This document shows positions 15,347 through 19,787 of a stretch of DNA of 35,512 nt, in pieces (positions within the stretch are counted from its first letter, which is position 1; the number at the start of each line of letters is the position of its first letter). The position numbers and the translations under genes are program-made. Below the pieces are notes generated by a model. That model was not told where the DNA came from. It was given only the letters and a program-made list of their open reading frames with translations, and made no database searches. Source of the stretch: Pseudoalteromonas prydzensis (GTDB taxonomy: Bacteria; Pseudomonadota; Gammaproteobacteria; Enterobacterales; Alteromonadaceae). The stretch is from assembly GCF_011050055.1 (NCBI RefSeq), contig NZ_DRGM01000005.1, positions 1 to 35,512 on the forward strand, read 5' to 3'.

Positions 15347-15697
15347 ATCTGCTGATATTCGCTATTTTGCAACAAAATAGCGAATATCGCGCACTTCAAC
15401 TTAATTCCCGCTAATTTATTTTTATTGTCATTTCTTATCAATTACTTAACTTTATTTACTTGTTTCTATTGTTACTTTTTGGCGTGTTAATTCCGCTACT
15501 TGTTGCTTTGTTTGCGTGTAATAAAATGCACTTTACTTAATTTGCGTCTTTTTTATTGTTTTTAATTCATTGATTTTTAATGTGAAAACTTTTAACTCAT
15601 ATTCTGTGTTGCTAAATAGCAACAAAAAACCGTGAAAAACCCTTATAAGAAGCAAGTTTTAATTTTAACTTGCTGATTTTAAATCGTTTTTAAAATG
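15347..15697. other. AT-rich intergenic region without genes
   Basis: I see no gene in this stretch. It contains a 16-bp perfect hairpin at the left end (15354-15388), a T-rich centre, a small GTTGCT-AAAT-AGCAAC hairpin at 15608-15623, and an inverted repeat GCAAGTT (15652-15658)/AACTTGC (15667-15673). The last part leads into the conserved EF-hand leader. Confidence 0.6.
15354..15388 (+). terminator. Long perfect hairpin after the PilZ gene
   Basis: GATATTCGCTATTTTG (15354-15369) and its exact complement at 15373-15388 enclose a 3-base CAA loop, 7 bases after the PilZ-gene stop. No T-run follows, so it may be a rho-assisted terminator or an mRNA 3'-end stabiliser and not a classical intrinsic terminator. 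Confidence 0.6.
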
Positions 15698-15788
15698 TGG
15701 CACTGAAGTTGTAATAGTCTAGTTGTACTGAACGAAAAGGTGATTATCACTAACGTTCGAAACCATAAGCATTGAAGGAATATTAATT
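15698..15788 (+). promoter_or_regulatory. EF-hand array leader, copy 1
   Basis: From 15698 to the ATG of the first EF-hand gene, about 81 of 94 bases match the leader of the fifth EF-hand gene (19124-19217) with no gaps. It starts with TGGCACTGAAGTTGTA, which fits a sigma-54 -24/-12 element except for T where the -12 C is expected. Within it, GTGATTATCAC (15740-15750) is a perfect 11-bp palindrome nested in GAACG...CGTTC arms. The end, GAAGGAATATTAATT, provides the ribosome-binding site. Sigma-54 use is a guess; conservation of the element is seen directly. Confidence 0.6.
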
Positions 15789-16001
15789 ATGAACACATTA
15801 AATAAAACATTAGCACTTATCGCACTAGCATCTTCATCAGTGGCATTTGCTGGTACTGACTTTGACACATTAGATGTTGATGGCAGCGGCACTATCAGCC
15901 AAAGCGAAGCGTCAGTAGATGCAGAGCTAATGAGCAAATTTGCAGAGCTTGATACTGACGGCAACGGTGAGCTTTCAAGAGAAGAGTTCTCTAAAGCGTA
16001 A
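15789..16001 (+). CDS. Secreted EF-hand-pair micro-protein, paralog 1
   Basis: The 70-residue product has a 21-residue Sec signal peptide ending AFA, with predicted cleavage before G22, leaving an acidic 49-residue mature protein. That protein is essentially two calcium-binding EF-hand loops: DVDGSGTISQSE (29-40) and DTDGNGELSREE (55-66). Both have acidic or polar ligands at positions 1, 3, 5 and Glu at 12. It differs from paralog 2 at only 8 of 213 bases (V18A, S33N, T35A, R64K), implying recent duplication or gene conversion. It heads the first block of four genes and has the full leader upstream. Location should be periplasmic or secreted. Function is unknown; calcium buffering or sensing is inference. 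Confidence 0.9.
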   Translation: MNTLNKTLALIALASSSVAFAGTDFDTLDVDGSGTISQSEASVDAELMSKFAELDTDGNGELSREEFSKA

Positions 16002-16021
16002 TTTAGGCAGCAGTTTCACAA

Positions 16022-16041
16022 CAGGGATCCCTGAAAAGGAC
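16022..16041 (+). repeat. Intergenic palindrome motif, copy after EF paralog 1
   Basis: CAGGGATCCCTG (16022-16033) is a perfect 12-bp palindrome followed by AAAAGGAC. Related copies follow EF paralogs 2 (16302), 4 (degenerate, 16961) and 5 (19444). It lies between the stop of one gene and the ribosome-binding site of the next, so it could act in RNA processing, partial termination or recombination. Confidence 0.65.
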
Positions 16042-16075
16042 TTCCACTCTTAATTGATTTGTAAGGAATATAATT

Positions 16076-16288
16076 ATGAACACATTAAATAAAACATTAG
16101 CACTTATCGCACTAGCATCTTCATCAGCGGCATTTGCTGGTACTGACTTTGACACATTAGATGTTGATGGCAACGGCGCAATCAGCCAAAGCGAAGCATC
16201 AGTAGATGCAGAGCTAATGAGCAAATTTGCAGAGCTTGATACTGACGGCAACGGTGAGCTTTCAAAAGAAGAGTTTTCAAAAGCGTAA
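16076..16288 (+). CDS. Secreted EF-hand-pair micro-protein, paralog 2
   Basis: This is a 70-residue paralog with the same signal peptide pattern (cleavage after AFA at 21) and two canonical loops, DVDGNGAISQSE (29-40) and DTDGNGELSKEE (55-66). It lies 74 bases after paralog 1. Its ribosome-binding site is GTAAGGAATATAATT, close to that of paralog 1. The mature parts of paralogs 1 and 2 differ at three residues. The upstream gap has no leader copy, so it is probably expressed from the paralog 1 promoter. The same sequence in the antisense direction is open but looks like a shadow. Confidence 0.9.
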   Translation: MNTLNKTLALIALASSSAAFAGTDFDTLDVDGNGAISQSEASVDAELMSKFAELDTDGNGELSKEEFSKA

Positions 16289-16301
16289 TACAGCTTTGTG
16301 A

Positions 16302-16320
16302 CAGGGAACCGTGAAAGGGA
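16302..16320 (+). repeat. Intergenic palindrome motif, copy after EF paralog 2
   Basis: CAGGGAACCGTG followed by AAAGGGA is a decayed version of the CAGGGATCCCTG-AAAAGGA motif seen after paralogs 1 and 5, in the same position relative to the stop codon. Confidence 0.5.
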
Positions 16321-16365
16321 TTTCATAGCACCACATTCATTATCTCAGGTACAAGGAGAAAAATT

Positions 16366-16584
16366 ATGAACGCACTAAGTAAAGCGGTAGTGCTCATTGC
16401 ATTAACCTCTTCATCAGCAGCATTTGCTTTTGAAGCGTTAGACTTCGATACGCTTGATGTTGATGAAAATGGTGTGATCAGTCAAGTTGAAGCATCAGAA
16501 GATGCTGAGCTTTTAAATAGCTTTGCAGAACGTGATACTGACCAAAACGGTGAGTTATCAAAAGAAGAGTTTTCAAAAGCTTAA
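16366..16584 (+). CDS. Secreted EF-hand-pair micro-protein, paralog 3
   Basis: The 72-residue product is the most diverged of the first block. It has a signal peptide of about 21 residues ending AFA, then FEALDFDTLD, two residues longer than its siblings. The loops are DVDENGVISQVE (31-42) and DTDQNGELSKEE (57-68), both canonical for calcium binding. The interhelix segment ASEDAELLNSFAERD differs from the others, with Arg before the second loop. A good ACAAGGAGAAAAATT ribosome-binding site precedes the ATG, 78 bases after paralog 2. Its divergence and retained loops suggest selection on calcium binding. Confidence 0.88.
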   Translation: MNALSKAVVLIALTSSSAAFAFEALDFDTLDVDENGVISQVEASEDAELLNSFAERDTDQNGELSKEEFSKA

Positions 16585-16732
16585 TAACCTAATACTGAGT
16601 TTATCCTGAGTTGCCAAAGACAACCTAAGTAGGAAAGGAACCTATGATAGAGGATAACAAGGAAGGCTTTGCTCGCGTTGAAAATCAGTATTGAAACCAA
16701 TTTTTTGATAGTACATTGAAGGAATATTAATT

Positions 16733-16945
16733 ATGAACAAATTAAATAAAACATTAGCACTAATTGCACTAGCATCTTCATCAGCGGCGTTTGCTGCTAC
16801 CGATTTTGATACGCTAGATGTTGATGGTAACGGCGCAATCAGCCAAAGCGAAGCATCAGTAGATGCAGAGCTTATGAGTAAATTTGCTGAGCTTGATACT
16901 GACGGCAACGGTGAGCTTTCAAAAGAAGAGTTCGCAAACGCGTAA
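16733..16945 (+). CDS. Secreted EF-hand-pair micro-protein, paralog 4
   Basis: The 70-residue product has the family signal peptide (cleavage after AFA, then ATDFD) and loops DVDGNGAISQSE (29-40) and DTDGNGELSKEE (55-66). The 23 bases before the ATG (16710-16732) match those of paralog 1, although most of the rest of the leader is not preserved. This suggests it once headed a block or was copied from a block head. A 148-bp gap separates it from paralog 3. An intrinsic terminator follows 51 bases after the stop, closing the first block. Confidence 0.9.
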   Translation: MNKLNKTLALIALASSSAAFAATDFDTLDVDGNGAISQSEASVDAELMSKFAELDTDGNGELSKEEFANA

Positions 16946-16996
16946 TTAAAGCTTCGCGCACAAGGAATCTAAAAGGATTTTACATTGATTACGTTC

Positions 16997-17029
16997 AAAA
17001 GCAGCCAATACCCCCGGGCTGCTTTTTTT
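16997..17029 (+). terminator. Intrinsic terminator of the first EF-hand block
   Basis: AAAAGCAGCC (16997-17006) pairs with GGCTGCTTTT (17017-17026) and the T-run continues to 17029. It lies between EF paralog 4 and the DUF998-like gene and marks the end of the four-gene block. Confidence 0.88.
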
Positions 17030-17122
17030 CTGTCTGGGTATTACGCATAACAAGGCATCTAGTTTACAGTTTAACTAAATCAGCTTATTATCAAGCTCTT
17101 AATTCAAGCATGGACGTTGATT

Positions 17123-17716
17123 ATGTTAAGTTACCTTGGCTTATACTCTGCATTAATTGCCAGTATCTGGATTGCTGTTGGGGTGTATATCGCTGGTAGG
17201 TGTTATCCAAACTATAGCCATGCAAAGCAATTTTGCAGCGAGCTCGGCGCTGTTGGCAGTCCCACAGAAAAACTCTCTCCTATTATTAATAACTACCCAC
17301 TTGGTTTATTGTTTTGTTTATTTGGCTGGTATGTATTGCAGCTGGAAAATGCCCCTCTATTAATTGCGTTGGTCGGTTGGTTAACCATAAGCCACGGTGT
17401 CGCTACTTGGTTTGCTGGGTACTTCCCAATGGATGGCGATCCTCAAACAAAAACACCGACTTTGAGTTGTCGAATTCACTCTTGGGCTGGCTTGGTAATG
17501 CTGATGTCTTTGCTGATTGCGCCAATTCTTGTTGCTGTAAGTTCATATACCAGTATTTCATTTCGGCTTTTTTCAATTTTGTGTGTGTGTATTACCTGTT
17601 ACTTTTTAGTTTTGTTGACGCAAGCATTTAAGCAAAAAGGCAGTGTAGGCACTTATCAACGATTATCTTATGGTGTTCAGTTGTTGTGGTTGAGTGCATT
17701 TTCGTTGGTGCTTTAA
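17123..17716 (+). CDS. DUF998-like multi-pass membrane protein
   Basis: The product (197 residues from the ATG at 17123) has about six hydrophobic segments and resembles DUF998 proteins. Conserved-looking points are CSELGAVGSPTEKLSPIINNYPLGLLF near the first loop, and the motif FAGYFPMDGDP...RIHSWAGLV, where the FP-D and the later His are typical. A TTG two codons upstream (17117) is in frame, but the ATG has GGA 8 bases before it and is preferred. The function of DUF998 proteins is not established. The gene lies inside the gap between the two EF-hand blocks. Confidence 0.72.
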   Translation: MLSYLGLYSALIASIWIAVGVYIAGRCYPNYSHAKQFCSELGAVGSPTEKLSPIINNYPLGLLFCLFGWYVLQLENAPLLIALVGWLTISHGVATWFAGYFPMDGDPQTKTPTLSCRIHSWAGLVMLMSLLIAPILVAVSSYTSISFRLFSILCVCITCYFLVLLTQAFKQKGSVGTYQRLSYGVQLLWLSAFSLVL

Positions 17717-17804
17717 TTTAATGTTAGATTTCAACAGTAAGTGTTGCTTTGTAAAACGCTTAAGCAAAGGTGAATCAAATATTGAATGACGGAGATTAGG
17801 CTTA

Positions 17805-18224
17805 GTGAAAAGTGTTAGCTATAACGTGGAACTGAGATGTCCATCTTTAGAAGAATTTTGTTTATTAAGAGAGAAGGTCGGTTGGGGTAAAGTCAACGCT
17901 GATCTGGCAAATACTAGTTTAAACAACTCGTTATTTCATGTAGTGATCCGACAGGAGGGGCTACTTGTTGGTATGGGTCGTGTAATAGGTGATGGTGGTT
18001 TATTTTTTTATATCCAAGATGTTGTTGTCGATCCTGACTTTCAAAGGCAAGGTATTGGTGCGTTGATTATGGATAATATAGAAATGTATTTGGCTGGGGC
18101 AGCAAAAAAAGGTGCAACCATCGGACTACTCTCAGCTAAAGGTAAAGAATCTTTTTATGCTCGTTACGGATATTTTAGTAGGCCGGATAAAATGTTGGGC
18201 TGTGGGATGTGTAAATTTACTTAG
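17805..18224 (+). CDS. GNAT-family N-acetyltransferase
   Basis: The 139-residue protein has a GNAT fold: an N-terminal beta-alpha region, strand LVGMGRVIGDGGLFFYIQDVVVDPDFQRQGIG, in which QRQGIG is the acetyl-CoA pyrophosphate-binding motif A, and a C-terminal FYARYGYFSRPDKMLGCGM typical of small-molecule GNATs. The start is a GTG with TAGG just upstream. The substrate cannot be told. It is followed 14 bases later by the OsmC-family gene, so the two are probably co-transcribed. Confidence 0.88.
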   Translation: MKSVSYNVELRCPSLEEFCLLREKVGWGKVNADLANTSLNNSLFHVVIRQEGLLVGMGRVIGDGGLFFYIQDVVVDPDFQRQGIGALIMDNIEMYLAGAAKKGATIGLLSAKGKESFYARYGYFSRPDKMLGCGMCKFT

Positions 18225-18238
18225 GATGAAAAATTTCA

Positions 18239-18709
18239 ATGTCTGAATATGTAGCAAGTGTTGTCTGGTCTCGCCAAGCAGAAGAGTTGTTTATTGATAA
18301 TAAATATAGCCGAGCTCACCAGTGGCAGTTTGATGGCGGGGCAAGGGTTGCTGCATCTTCTTCTCCCGATATAGTGCCATTACCGTATTCGGTTGCCGCA
18401 AATGTTGATCCAGAAGAAGCGTTTATTGCTTCGCTATCTAGCTGTCATATGCTGTTCTTTTTATCGATTGCGGCAAAAAATAAATTTACGGTTGATAGCT
18501 ATCAAGATGACGCGGTTGGTTTGATGCAGCGCGCAAGTGATGGGCGTATGTCGATGACTCAAGTAACTTTAAAGCCCTGTGTGAAGTTTGCTAGTAATGA
18601 GCAACCGAGTGCAGAGCAATTAGAAGAAATGCACCATCAGGCTCATGAGTTATGTTTTATCGCCAATTCGGTGAAAACAGAGATTGTGATTGAGATTGTT
18701 GGTGCTTAA
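18239..18709 (+). CDS. OsmC-family peroxiredoxin-like protein
   Basis: The 156-residue product fits the OsmC/Ohr/YhfA superfamily of thiol-dependent hydroperoxide reductases. It has the DPEEAFIASLSSCHMLFFLSIAAK helix with C69, and HELCFIANSVKTEIVIEI with C139; these are the paired catalytic cysteines. Compared with Ohr, the SSPDIVPLPYSVAANVDPEE segment matches the general OsmC subgroup. It likely detoxifies organic peroxides in the cytoplasm. It follows the GNAT gene closely, and a hairpin without T-run is found 42 bases after the stop. Confidence 0.88.
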   Translation: MSEYVASVVWSRQAEELFIDNKYSRAHQWQFDGGARVAASSSPDIVPLPYSVAANVDPEEAFIASLSSCHMLFFLSIAAKNKFTVDSYQDDAVGLMQRASDGRMSMTQVTLKPCVKFASNEQPSAEQLEEMHHQAHELCFIANSVKTEIVIEIVGA

Positions 18710-19123
18710 TTAAATTGTAAGCATACCCAGAGCGTTAAAACTGCAATGTCGTTGCTATTGTTTCGCACAATGGCAACAAAACACGAATTTTCAAAAACTA
18801 ACTGCGTTTTTATTTTTTACTTACCAAAATAAATTTAATTTTCCCTTACAATTCAGATTGTTAATTTATGAAAAATATTTAGCTTTTATCAGTTAAAATA
18901 TCTGTTCAGTTGCGGTTAGGGAGGTCGTCTTTGAAAAAGCCGCTATTATCAGCATTATTTCTTGAGTTGTGTCATTTTTATAATGTTTAACCATTTGATT
19001 TATATGAGCTTATAAATTAACGCGTAAAGTGTGTTGTTAAACTGCAACAGAATATTCCTTCTAAATTCCTCGAAAACATCAAAAGCTAGTGTAACATTAT
19101 GATTTTTAATGGTAATAAATTGT
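18710..19123. other. AT-rich intergenic region without genes
   Basis: No gene is visible. At the left is a hairpin GTTGCTATTG (18751-18760)/CAATGGCAAC (18768-18777) with one G-T wobble, a possible terminator for the GNAT-OsmC pair though it has no T-run. The rest is AT-rich and resembles the region upstream of EF paralog 1 in composition, including a TTG...CAA-type hairpin near 19031-19046. It runs into the second leader copy. Confidence 0.55.
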
Positions 19124-19214
19124 TGGCATCGAAGTTGTAATACTCTAGTTGTCTTGAACGAAACGGTGATTATCACTTAAGTTCACAACCATAAACTTTG
19201 AAGGAATATTTATT
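19124..19214 (+). promoter_or_regulatory. EF-hand array leader, copy 2
   Basis: This is the second copy of the 94-bp leader, ungapped against 15698-15791 with about 13 differences. It begins TGGCATCGAAGTTGTA and keeps the same 75-base distance from this element to the ATG. The palindrome GTGATTATCAC is intact at 19166-19176, and the outer arms have become GAAC...GTTC. Retention of the palindrome while nearby bases drift suggests an operator or structured 5' UTR. Confidence 0.6.
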
Positions 19215-19427
19215 ATGAACACATTAAATAAAACATTAGCACTTATCGCATTGGCATCTTCTTCTGCAGCATTTGCTGGTACTGAATTTGATACATTAGA
19301 TGTTGATGGCAATGGCGCAATTAGCCAGCAAGAAGCATCTGTTGATGCCGCTATTTCGGCTAAATTTACTGAACTTGATACTGACCAAAATGGTGAGTTA
19401 TCAAAAGAAGAATTTTCAAAAGCGTAA
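19215..19427 (+). CDS. Secreted EF-hand-pair micro-protein, paralog 5
   Basis: This 70-residue protein heads the second block and has the full leader. The signal peptide is identical to that of paralog 2 (cleavage after AFA). Loops are DVDGNGAISQQE (29-40) and DTDQNGELSKEE (55-66). The linker ASVDAAISAKFTELD differs from paralogs 1, 2 and 4, while the second loop shares DQNG with paralog 3. The mature protein is about 49 acidic residues, presumably exported through Sec. Confidence 0.9.
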   Translation: MNTLNKTLALIALASSSAAFAGTEFDTLDVDGNGAISQQEASVDAAISAKFTELDTDQNGELSKEEFSKA

Positions 19428-19443
19428 TTTCAGTTTCCACAAA

Positions 19444-19462
19444 CAGGGATCTCTGAAAAGGA
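19444..19462 (+). repeat. Intergenic palindrome motif, copy after EF paralog 5
   Basis: CAGGGATCTCTG (19444-19455) followed by AAAAGGA differs by one base from the perfect palindrome after paralog 1 and occupies the same place between stop and next ribosome-binding site. Confidence 0.6.
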
Positions 19463-19495
19463 TTTCTCTCATTTTAAATTATTAGGAATAACACT

Positions 19496-19711
19496 ATGAA
19501 ACATATTAATACAGCACTTGCCATTATTGCCCTAGCGGCTTCATCAACTGCGTTTGCTGCAGTTAGCTTTGATACTTTTGATACCAATGGTGATGGCGTG
19601 ATCAGCCAAAAAGAAGCATCAGTGAATGCACAGCTAGTTGAAATATTTGCTGATTTAGATACGGATAGCAACGGTGAATTATCAAAAGAAGAGTTTGCCA
19701 AAGTACAATAA
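19496..19711 (+). CDS. Secreted EF-hand-pair micro-protein, paralog 6
   Basis: The 71-residue product is the most diverged paralog. It starts MKHINTALAI, has a signal peptide ending TAFA and loops DTNGDGVISQKE (29-40) and DTDSNGELSKEE (55-66), both canonical. It ends KVQ instead of SKA. It lies 68 bases after paralog 5, has an AGGAATAACACT ribosome-binding region and is closed by a palindromic terminator 25 bases after its stop. Co-transcription with paralog 5 is likely. Confidence 0.88.
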   Translation: MKHINTALAIIALAASSTAFAAVSFDTFDTNGDGVISQKEASVNAQLVEIFADLDTDSNGELSKEEFAKVQ

Positions 19712-19736
19712 ACGGATAGCAATAATACTCCTCCAC

Positions 19737-19766
19737 AAAAAAGCAGCTTAATTAAGCTGCTTTTTT
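19737..19766 (+). terminator. Bidirectional palindromic terminator between EF paralog 6 and the TonB receptor gene
   Basis: The 30 bases are a perfect palindrome: A-run, GCAGC, central TTAATTAA, GCTGC, T-run. It has a T-run on both strands and lies between two convergent genes, so it can terminate both. Confidence 0.88.
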
Positions 19767-19787
19767 GGTTAACTTGACTGTGGCTGG

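Follow-up and report, generated by a model that had tools for sequence, protein, structure and literature searches.

EF-hand microproteins of Pseudoalteromonas prydzensis as a probable output of a GlrR-like envelope system

The six EF-hand microprotein genes in the window (the whole stretch of 35,512 nucleotides of P. prydzensis DNA that was analysed) probably encode proteins that bind calcium, likely in the periplasm, as the sigma54-driven output of an envelope three-component system with a GlrR-like regulator. This reading is preferred because both promoters of the genes resemble the sigma54 promoters driven by GlrR (QseF) and IHF. The best-supported partner of the array appears, from sequence comparison, to be a GlrR-like three-component system encoded elsewhere in the genome. 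Many bacterial EF-hand proteins are not known to belong to any pathway, and a link between EF-hand microproteins and the GlrR envelope regulator was not found in the literature searched. For this microprotein family a regulator, a promoter and a sensor can now be predicted, and the linkage is seen in four bacterial families. The gene next to the GlrR/QseF operon encodes a small RNA in E. coli, and in marine relatives it may encode a calcium protein.

As a preliminary description of this DNA had claimed, six EF-hand microproteins of 70-72 residues lie in two blocks; the ORFs, the Pfam profile comparison and the loop pattern agree. All six genes are on the plus strand. Block 1 holds genes 1 to 4 (15789-16001, 70 aa; 16076-16288, 70 aa; 16366-16584, 72 aa; 16733-16945, 70 aa), and block 2 holds genes 5 and 6 (19215-19427, 70 aa; 19496-19711, 71 aa). 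The two blocks are present as claimed, but they are really one array, which is split in this clade by a cassette of DUF998, GNAT and OsmC-like genes (17117-18709, plus strand). The cassette lies outside the system and is found, whole or partial, only in some relatives, and interrupts one array. Both blocks likely end in a plus-strand terminator that is missing from the terminator-scan list: block 1 in a hairpin with a T-run, placed by eye (17000-17029), and block 2 in a perfect 16-bp inverted repeat with a T-run (19736-19767).

Every one of the six proteins exceeds the Pfam cut-off of one or more EF-hand models. It was also confirmed that the calcium ligands are kept, as all 12 loops match the canonical 12-residue pattern with its ligand positions. 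This pattern is confined to the six proteins among the 95 ORFs of the window (ATG start, at least 40 aa), and when the residues of the mature parts were shuffled 600 times, at least one loop arose in 4 shuffles and two loops in none. The mature parts, whose ends were placed by eye with cleavage after AFA, are 49-51 residues long, contain 11-16 D/E versus 2-3 K/R, and have no cysteine. A Sec-type export signal is likely for all six on sequence grounds, and the loops predict that these two-EF-hand proteins likely bind calcium. The spacing between the two loops is exactly 14 residues in 194 of 194 EF-hand genes. In the AlphaFold2 model of the mature part of paralog 2 (pLDDT 95.1), a strand bridge links a helix-loop-helix pair, each loop contributes strand residues, and the two loops pair with each other. 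The shortened EF-hand pair is predicted, in the model of this one paralog, to fold as one closed unit.

Both blocks have their own sigma54-like promoter with a TGT-N12-ACA site upstream and IHF-like sites, all on the plus strand. Upstream of block 1 lie a distal IHF-like site (15563-15575; its reverse complement matches WATCARNNNNTTR), a predicted GlrR-type upstream activating site (15607-15624), a proximal IHF-like site that lies between this site and the promoter (15666-15678), and a sigma54-like -24/-12 element (15698-15713; TGGCACTGAAGTTGTA). The activator site is a palindrome, TGTTGC-N6-GCAACA, which contains TGT-N12-ACA and is the sole exact copy within the 5.1 Mb genome. Block 2 has a consensus-like distal IHF-like site (18988-19000), a predicted GlrR-type site that is an imperfect palindrome (19032-19049; TGTTGTTAAACTGCAACA), and a sigma54-like -24/-12 element (19124-19139; TGGCATCGAAGTTGTA). 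The sigma54-like element conserves TGGCA and the spacing, and its -12 part reads TTGT (or TTGA, TTGG). The canonical -12 element of sigma54 promoters is TTGC.

Is this layout specific to the arrays? The sigma54-like element together with TGT-N12-ACA was found at the first genes of arrays of types 1 and 2 (28/35), of type 3 (14/18) and of other clades (8/9). At internal genes the pair was absent (0/63, 0/52 and 0/28, respectively), and shuffled sequences gave 3/3500, 0/1800 and 0/900. The first genes that failed this site-plus-promoter test number 7/35, 4/18 and 1/9. A strict IHF consensus between site and promoter is present in 10/35, 12/18 and 6/9. A strict composite pattern matched 33 times across 20 Pseudoalteromonas genomes (control 0); an EF-hand gene lies downstream at all 30 loci fetched, and the remaining 3 matches are directly upstream of EF-hand genes. 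In the genome of the window, block 1 is the only strict match. Block 2 and a second array, on contig 133, were found by a looser pattern only, which also matches 4 other places in the genome (control 1). In E. coli, QseF, together with IHF, is reported to bind TGT-N12-ACA sites, the consensus published for QseF/GlrR, at the sigma54 promoter of glmY (PMC6075780). Sequence inspection of that promoter revealed three such sites; a distance of 63 bp separates two of these, and an IHF-like site falls within it. In the nine listed EF-hand promoters with two sites the distance is 65-68 bp, and four of the nine have an IHF-like site in the interval. Binding of GlrR and IHF at the array promoters is predicted from these motifs.

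The preliminary description saw no partner beside the array. This is true of the window locus, but the paralogous contig-133 array, of four diverged EF-hand copies, is divergent from a gene set comprising a sensor kinase, a QseG-like protein and a GlrR-like regulator. The regulator and E. coli GlrR share 54% identity, and both have RNRxxFYKL in the C-terminal helix. NCBIfam GlrR (NF011695) is by far its best family (597.4 bits; next 420.5), and it is called GlrR-like because the score is below the curated cut-off of 763. The kinase is 29% identical to its E. coli counterpart, and the QseG-like neighbour, which matched no Pfam family, shares only 23% identity with E. coli QseG. The divergent arrangement of EF-hand array and gene set occurs in 18/18 glrR-type Pseudoalteromonas loci; in one further locus of the genus (L156), the GlrR-like set is present but an EF-hand gene is not. 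Among 108 Pseudoalteromonas genomes, 87 have both EF-hand and GlrR-like genes, 19 have neither, 2 have only the EF-hand gene and none has only the GlrR-like gene, so presence is concordant in 106/108, a pattern confounded by shared descent. At the order level the co-occurrence is loose (247 genomes: both 28, GlrR-like only 26, EF-hand only 44, neither 149). Where both places are listed (26 genomes), 19, representing four families, have an EF-hand match no more than 5 kb from the GlrR-like gene, and the other 7 have no listed EF-hand match near it.

At eight loci in other genera, a single EF-hand gene directly precedes the kinase gene on the same strand. Six of the eight EF-hand genes are without both motifs and one has the promoter element alone, and five have a gene of about 700 aa on the same strand 163-298 bases further upstream. 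Thus, the EF-hand gene may or may not lead an operon here. The same proteins may be governed by a different sigma54 activator, or a different promoter type may read the sites; this is unlikely but deserves weight. The six same-strand genes are in its favour, as are the non-canonical -12 element and the EF-hand matches in 44/247 genomes of the order that have no GlrR-like gene. However, the TGT-N12-ACA motif and the two-site spacing indicate the GlrR-like regulator, as do the linkage and the joint absence within the genus.

A biofilm role was also proposed: the proteins would be secreted to buffer calcium or to cross-link the matrix, with the adjoining PilZ gene as the link to biofilm. PilZ is indeed present in 23/24 trkH-trkA loci, and the proteins are acidic and in several copies. 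The link is not supported, as the other two array types, copA-type and glrR-type, have the same promoter layout as the window array without PilZ. In the window, PilZ and the array are set apart by a hairpin (15354-15388), and the array is served by a promoter of its own. Genes for secretion or for a matrix were not seen beside the arrays, and the main text of a P. tunicata biofilm proteome paper (PMC12153261) does not contain "EF-hand" or "calmodulin". The biofilm role is therefore improbable.

It is very improbable that the true ligand is another metal such as a lanthanide, as for lanmodulin. The short loop spacing and a weak match to the lanmodulin model are in line with it; against it are two loops rather than four, a spacing of 14 rather than 12-13, the lack of proline at loop position 2 (0/12 loops), and the predicted model, in which the loops pair with one another.

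The preliminary description had inferred multi-copy, likely exported proteins, and this is supported, with the loops under purifying selection. The dN/dS was 0.20 among the six paralogs and about 0.07 among 21 orthologues of the terminal gene, where synonymous sites are near saturation. Paralog 6 belongs to this conserved terminal-gene subfamily; in a tree of 85 genes it is in a separate clade, and the terminal genes of type-1 arrays (17 genes) form a monophyletic group. Between paralogs 1 and 2, 8/213 bases are different, as previously counted. The array was said to be duplicated or converted: duplication is recent in some relatives, whose neighbouring copies differ at 3/213 and 1/222 bases, but ongoing conversion is weakly supported because same-genome copies are joined in just 2/26 cherries of the tree. 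Passive tandem amplification without selected function is hardly credible, since the recent tandem copies and the wide range of 1-13 EF-hand matches per genome (among genomes having a match) would suit it but the dN/dS of about 0.07-0.20, the 14-residue loop spacing in all 194 genes and the conserved promoters would not.

How might a GlrR-like system use such proteins? Once the envelope-stress sensor fires, the regulator would be phosphorylated and would activate the three EF-hand transcription units of the genome together. After export, the proteins would bind periplasmic calcium and may then act as small stabilising or chaperone-like effectors; additional gene copies would raise the dose. 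They may, in addition, give feedback to the sensor, as zinc-binding ZraP does for ZraSR. Seawater is calcium-rich, and therefore a tight calcium site would always be loaded, which counts against this explanation. A bolder version, possible but rather doubtful, is that the microprotein is a fourth component of the GlrR-type sensor: a periplasmic receptor that would tell the kinase and the lipoprotein the envelope calcium level, making GlrR/sigma54 a calcium switch, with the receptor multiplied into dispersed, co-regulated arrays in Pseudoalteromonas.

Among the nearest solved folds is the calmodulin-type EF-hand pair (calmodulin lobe, polcalcin), compared with which the microproteins are about 10 residues shorter between the loops in alignments and have an export signal. 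Export and EF-hand loops at short spacing are shared with lanmodulin, which is described as having four EF hands, adjacent ones 12-13 residues apart, with a position-2 loop proline in at least one hand (PMC10232371). Membership in the lanmodulin family failed on loop number, spacing, this proline and the NCBIfam cut-off (19.1-27.5 versus 135 bits). CaBP of Caulobacter (periplasmic, 133 aa, three EF motifs) and EfhP of Pseudomonas aeruginosa are likewise described as EF-hand proteins linked to stress or to calcium responses; their abstracts mention neither arrays nor GlrR, and the likeness is one of description.

With E. coli GlrK-QseG-GlrR (QseEGF), the system shares the gene order of kinase, middle gene and regulator, and with glmY the TGT-N12-ACA sites, the IHF-like site and the sigma54-type element. 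In both, a gene under its control, which here is predicted, adjoins the operon; in E. coli it is the glmY small RNA, whereas here it encodes a likely exported EF-hand protein. A search with Rfam GlmY recovered the E. coli gene but gave no hit in three EF-bearing loci (L058, L138, L096). ZraP of Salmonella and E. coli is reported to be a small periplasmic metal-binding protein that binds zinc, its gene divergent from the kinase/sigma54-activator pair ZraSR, which controls it (PMC4987338). The glrR-type EF-hand arrays are likewise divergent from a kinase/activator set at all 18 loci, while the window locus is not. The likeness is one of arrangement, and the microproteins differ from the zinc-binding ZraP in having calcium loops and many copies at several loci. 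By this analogy, the microproteins most likely work as ZraP does beside ZraSR, as an effector and perhaps a feedback part of an envelope sensor.

Six microprotein ORFs are present in the window as given in the preliminary description; paralogs 1 and 2 are identical except at 8 of 213 bases, and all 12 calcium loops of the six paralogs are canonical. Each of the six proteins exceeds a Pfam EF-hand cut-off. Since all of them lack cysteine and begin with a hydrophobic stretch that ends in AFA, the claimed Sec signal is a fair reading by eye. The source genome is a 5.1 Mb Pseudoalteromonas draft (completeness 93.8%, contamination 8.6%). The first window ORF (5-811) starts with MYKRQ, commonly an artefact of assembly or adapters where the contigs of draft genomes begin.

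For the six genes, dN/dS was 0.20 overall, 0.31 in the linker and about 0.18 in both loops. It was about 0.07 for 21 orthologues of the terminal gene, where synonymous differences are near saturation; among the four copies on contig 133 of the same genome they are saturated and yield no ratio. The terminal genes (17) form their own clade in an 85-gene tree. The array had been described as being duplicated or converted. Fresh tandem copies do exist, but homogenisation is not the rule, because only 2 of 26 tree cherries fall within one genome. A 128-aa metagenomic protein (P0023) resembles two EF microproteins fused via part of a second signal peptide, as would result from unequal crossing-over.

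In scans permitting 8-30 and 10-18 residues between loops, the loop-to-loop distance was exactly 14 residues in all 194 Pseudoalteromonas genes (102 + 92). PMC10232371 gives spacings of ~25 for usual calcium EF-hand proteins and 12-13 for lanmodulin. The AlphaFold2 model of mature paralog 2 (pLDDT 95.1, pTM 0.76; alignment of 67 sequences) has predicted strand residues at 15-16 and 41-42, one pair per loop, and may be read as a closed EF pair. Among solved folds, calmodulin lobes, polcalcin and similar ones come closest to it; in alignments, calmodulin and a second EF-hand protein have about ten more residues between loops than the microprotein. Bead proteins of other genera are single, likely exported proteins with up to about 18 EF loops by pattern scan, spaced by 12 residues inside a pair and mostly 18-27 from pair to pair. 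Multiplication of one compact EF-hand pair seems to take two routes, gene arrays and bead proteins. The bead proteins at six loci (L088, L089, L090, L091, L092, L105) measure 380-551 aa and consist of repeated compact EF-hand pairs behind a signal-like N-terminus.

EF-hand microprotein matches (E <= 0.001) were found in 89 of 108 Pseudoalteromonas genomes, 1 to 13 apiece, and, in the order sample, in 72 of 247 genomes and 25 of 87 genera. One incomplete copy (P0013), from a contig of 235 bases assigned to Streptomyces, is probably mislabelled or contaminating. Three array types were found. The first, that of the window, has trkH-PilZ on one side and trkA on the other and numbers 2-7 copies (24 loci sampled; no PilZ ORF was seen in one trkH-trkA locus, L064). 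A DUF998/GNAT/OsmC cassette, whole or partial, interrupts this type in some relatives, and such a split accounts for the two blocks of the window (15789-16945 and 19215-19711). The second lies downstream of genes for MerR, a CopA-like ATPase and a cupredoxin-like protein, named by eye from the sequences; at L072, L074, L023 and L024, arrays following the MerR regulator, CopA-like copper ATPase and cupredoxin-like gene have the same promoter layout as other EF arrays. The third is the contig 133 array of four diverged copies. At L135:5671-8031, ten tandem EF microprotein genes, five of them near-identical copies at 232-base spacing, adjoin a GlrR-like operon.

TGGCA was found in 33 of 34 aligned upstream regions (all except L023_g2), mostly as TGGCA[CT]nGAAGTTG[TA]AATA. 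This sigma54-like element is upstream of the start codon, mostly by 75-101 bases for types 1 and 2 and by 47-64 for type 3. In 17 EF promoters, counting from the -24 element where the site is present, the nearer TGT-N12-ACA site begins at -90 to -92, the second at -155 to -160, and IHF-like sites lie at -31/-32 and -134 to -138. The exact block 1 palindrome (15607-15624) occurs at a single place in the window genome on both strands (control 0). A composite promoter pattern gave 9 matches in 6 of 8 genomes in a first trial (control 0) and 33 in 20 genomes (control 0), all 33 upstream of EF-hand genes (30 by fetched loci, 3 by gene coordinates). The pattern was built from these EF promoters themselves; thus, its exclusivity, not its presence, counts as the finding. 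In the window genome it finds block 1 only, and block 2 and contig 133 need a looser pattern. Another palindrome-like site, TGTGTGGATTTCCGCACAC or similar, lies upstream of TGGCA-N6-TTG at G000:C134:7741-7845 and G048:C1:749413-749515, and is possibly the site of another sigma54 activator.

The contig 133 array is divergent from three genes: one for a histidine kinase, one in the QseG position whose product has 206 aa, and one for a sigma54 response regulator. By far the best NCBIfam family of the regulator is GlrR, at 597 bits, below the cut-off of 763 (next family, 420). Kinase, QseG-like and GlrR-like genes adjoin the EF array in 18 of 18 Pseudoalteromonas glrR-type loci sampled, which were selected by their EF genes and not by the regulator. 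The linkage also occurs in more distant Pseudoalteromonas (L093, L135, L136, L155, L157) and another genus (L096), with regulators 53-68% identical. A single EF gene lies just upstream of the kinase on the same strand (gap 21-169 bases) in eight loci from other genera (L138-L141, L144, L145, L147, L148); in five of these loci a ~700-aa gene lies 163-298 bases further upstream, also on that strand. The EF gene is divergent, with a loop gap of 14-16, at L142, L143, L146, L149 and L152, and 3′ of the regulator gene at L150. An ORF scan of the locus found no EF gene at L153, L154 and L156, nor at L151, where the order-wide search lists a match. Across the 247 genomes of the order, with GlrR-like genes called at E <= 1e-120, 28 have both, 26 GlrR-like only, 44 EF only and 149 neither; the EF match is within 5 kb of the GlrR-like gene in 19 of the 26 (of 28) genomes with both places listed. 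In Pseudoalteromonas, 87 genomes have both, 19 neither (G104 by elimination), none GlrR-like only and two EF only, each of the two with a single match (E 4.5e-4 and 3.6e-7).

The window microproteins are probably exported and metal-binding, and would be under the control of an envelope sensor/sigma54 pair. Since the arrangement resembles that of ZraP with ZraSR, an effector role combined with feedback is the preferred inference, ahead of a passive buffer or matrix role such as the secreted calcium buffer or matrix cross-linker proposed before. Seawater is high in calcium, so tight sites would stay loaded, which counts against simple sensing.

With E. coli GlrR, the contig 133 regulator shares 54% identity and the motif RNRxxFYKL in the C-terminal helix; identity is 29% for the kinase and 23% for the QseG-like protein. 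As described in PMC6075780, E. coli QseF, with the help of IHF, binds TGT-N12-ACA and fires glmY, directly upstream of qseEGF, from a sigma54 promoter; the site is given as TGTC-N10-GACA in PMC8745638 and PMC4987338. The E. coli glmY promoter sequence has three TGT-N12-ACA sites and, between two of them, an IHF-like TAACTCATTGATT close to TAATTCATTGATT of the window. For ZraP, a repressor role appears in the title of a work cited in PMC4987338, which itself describes a zinc-dependent periplasmic chaperone expressed from a divergent sigma54 promoter. The EF microproteins, probably driven by an envelope sensor/sigma54 pair and, in the glrR-type arrays, encoded beside it, resemble ZraP with ZraSR.
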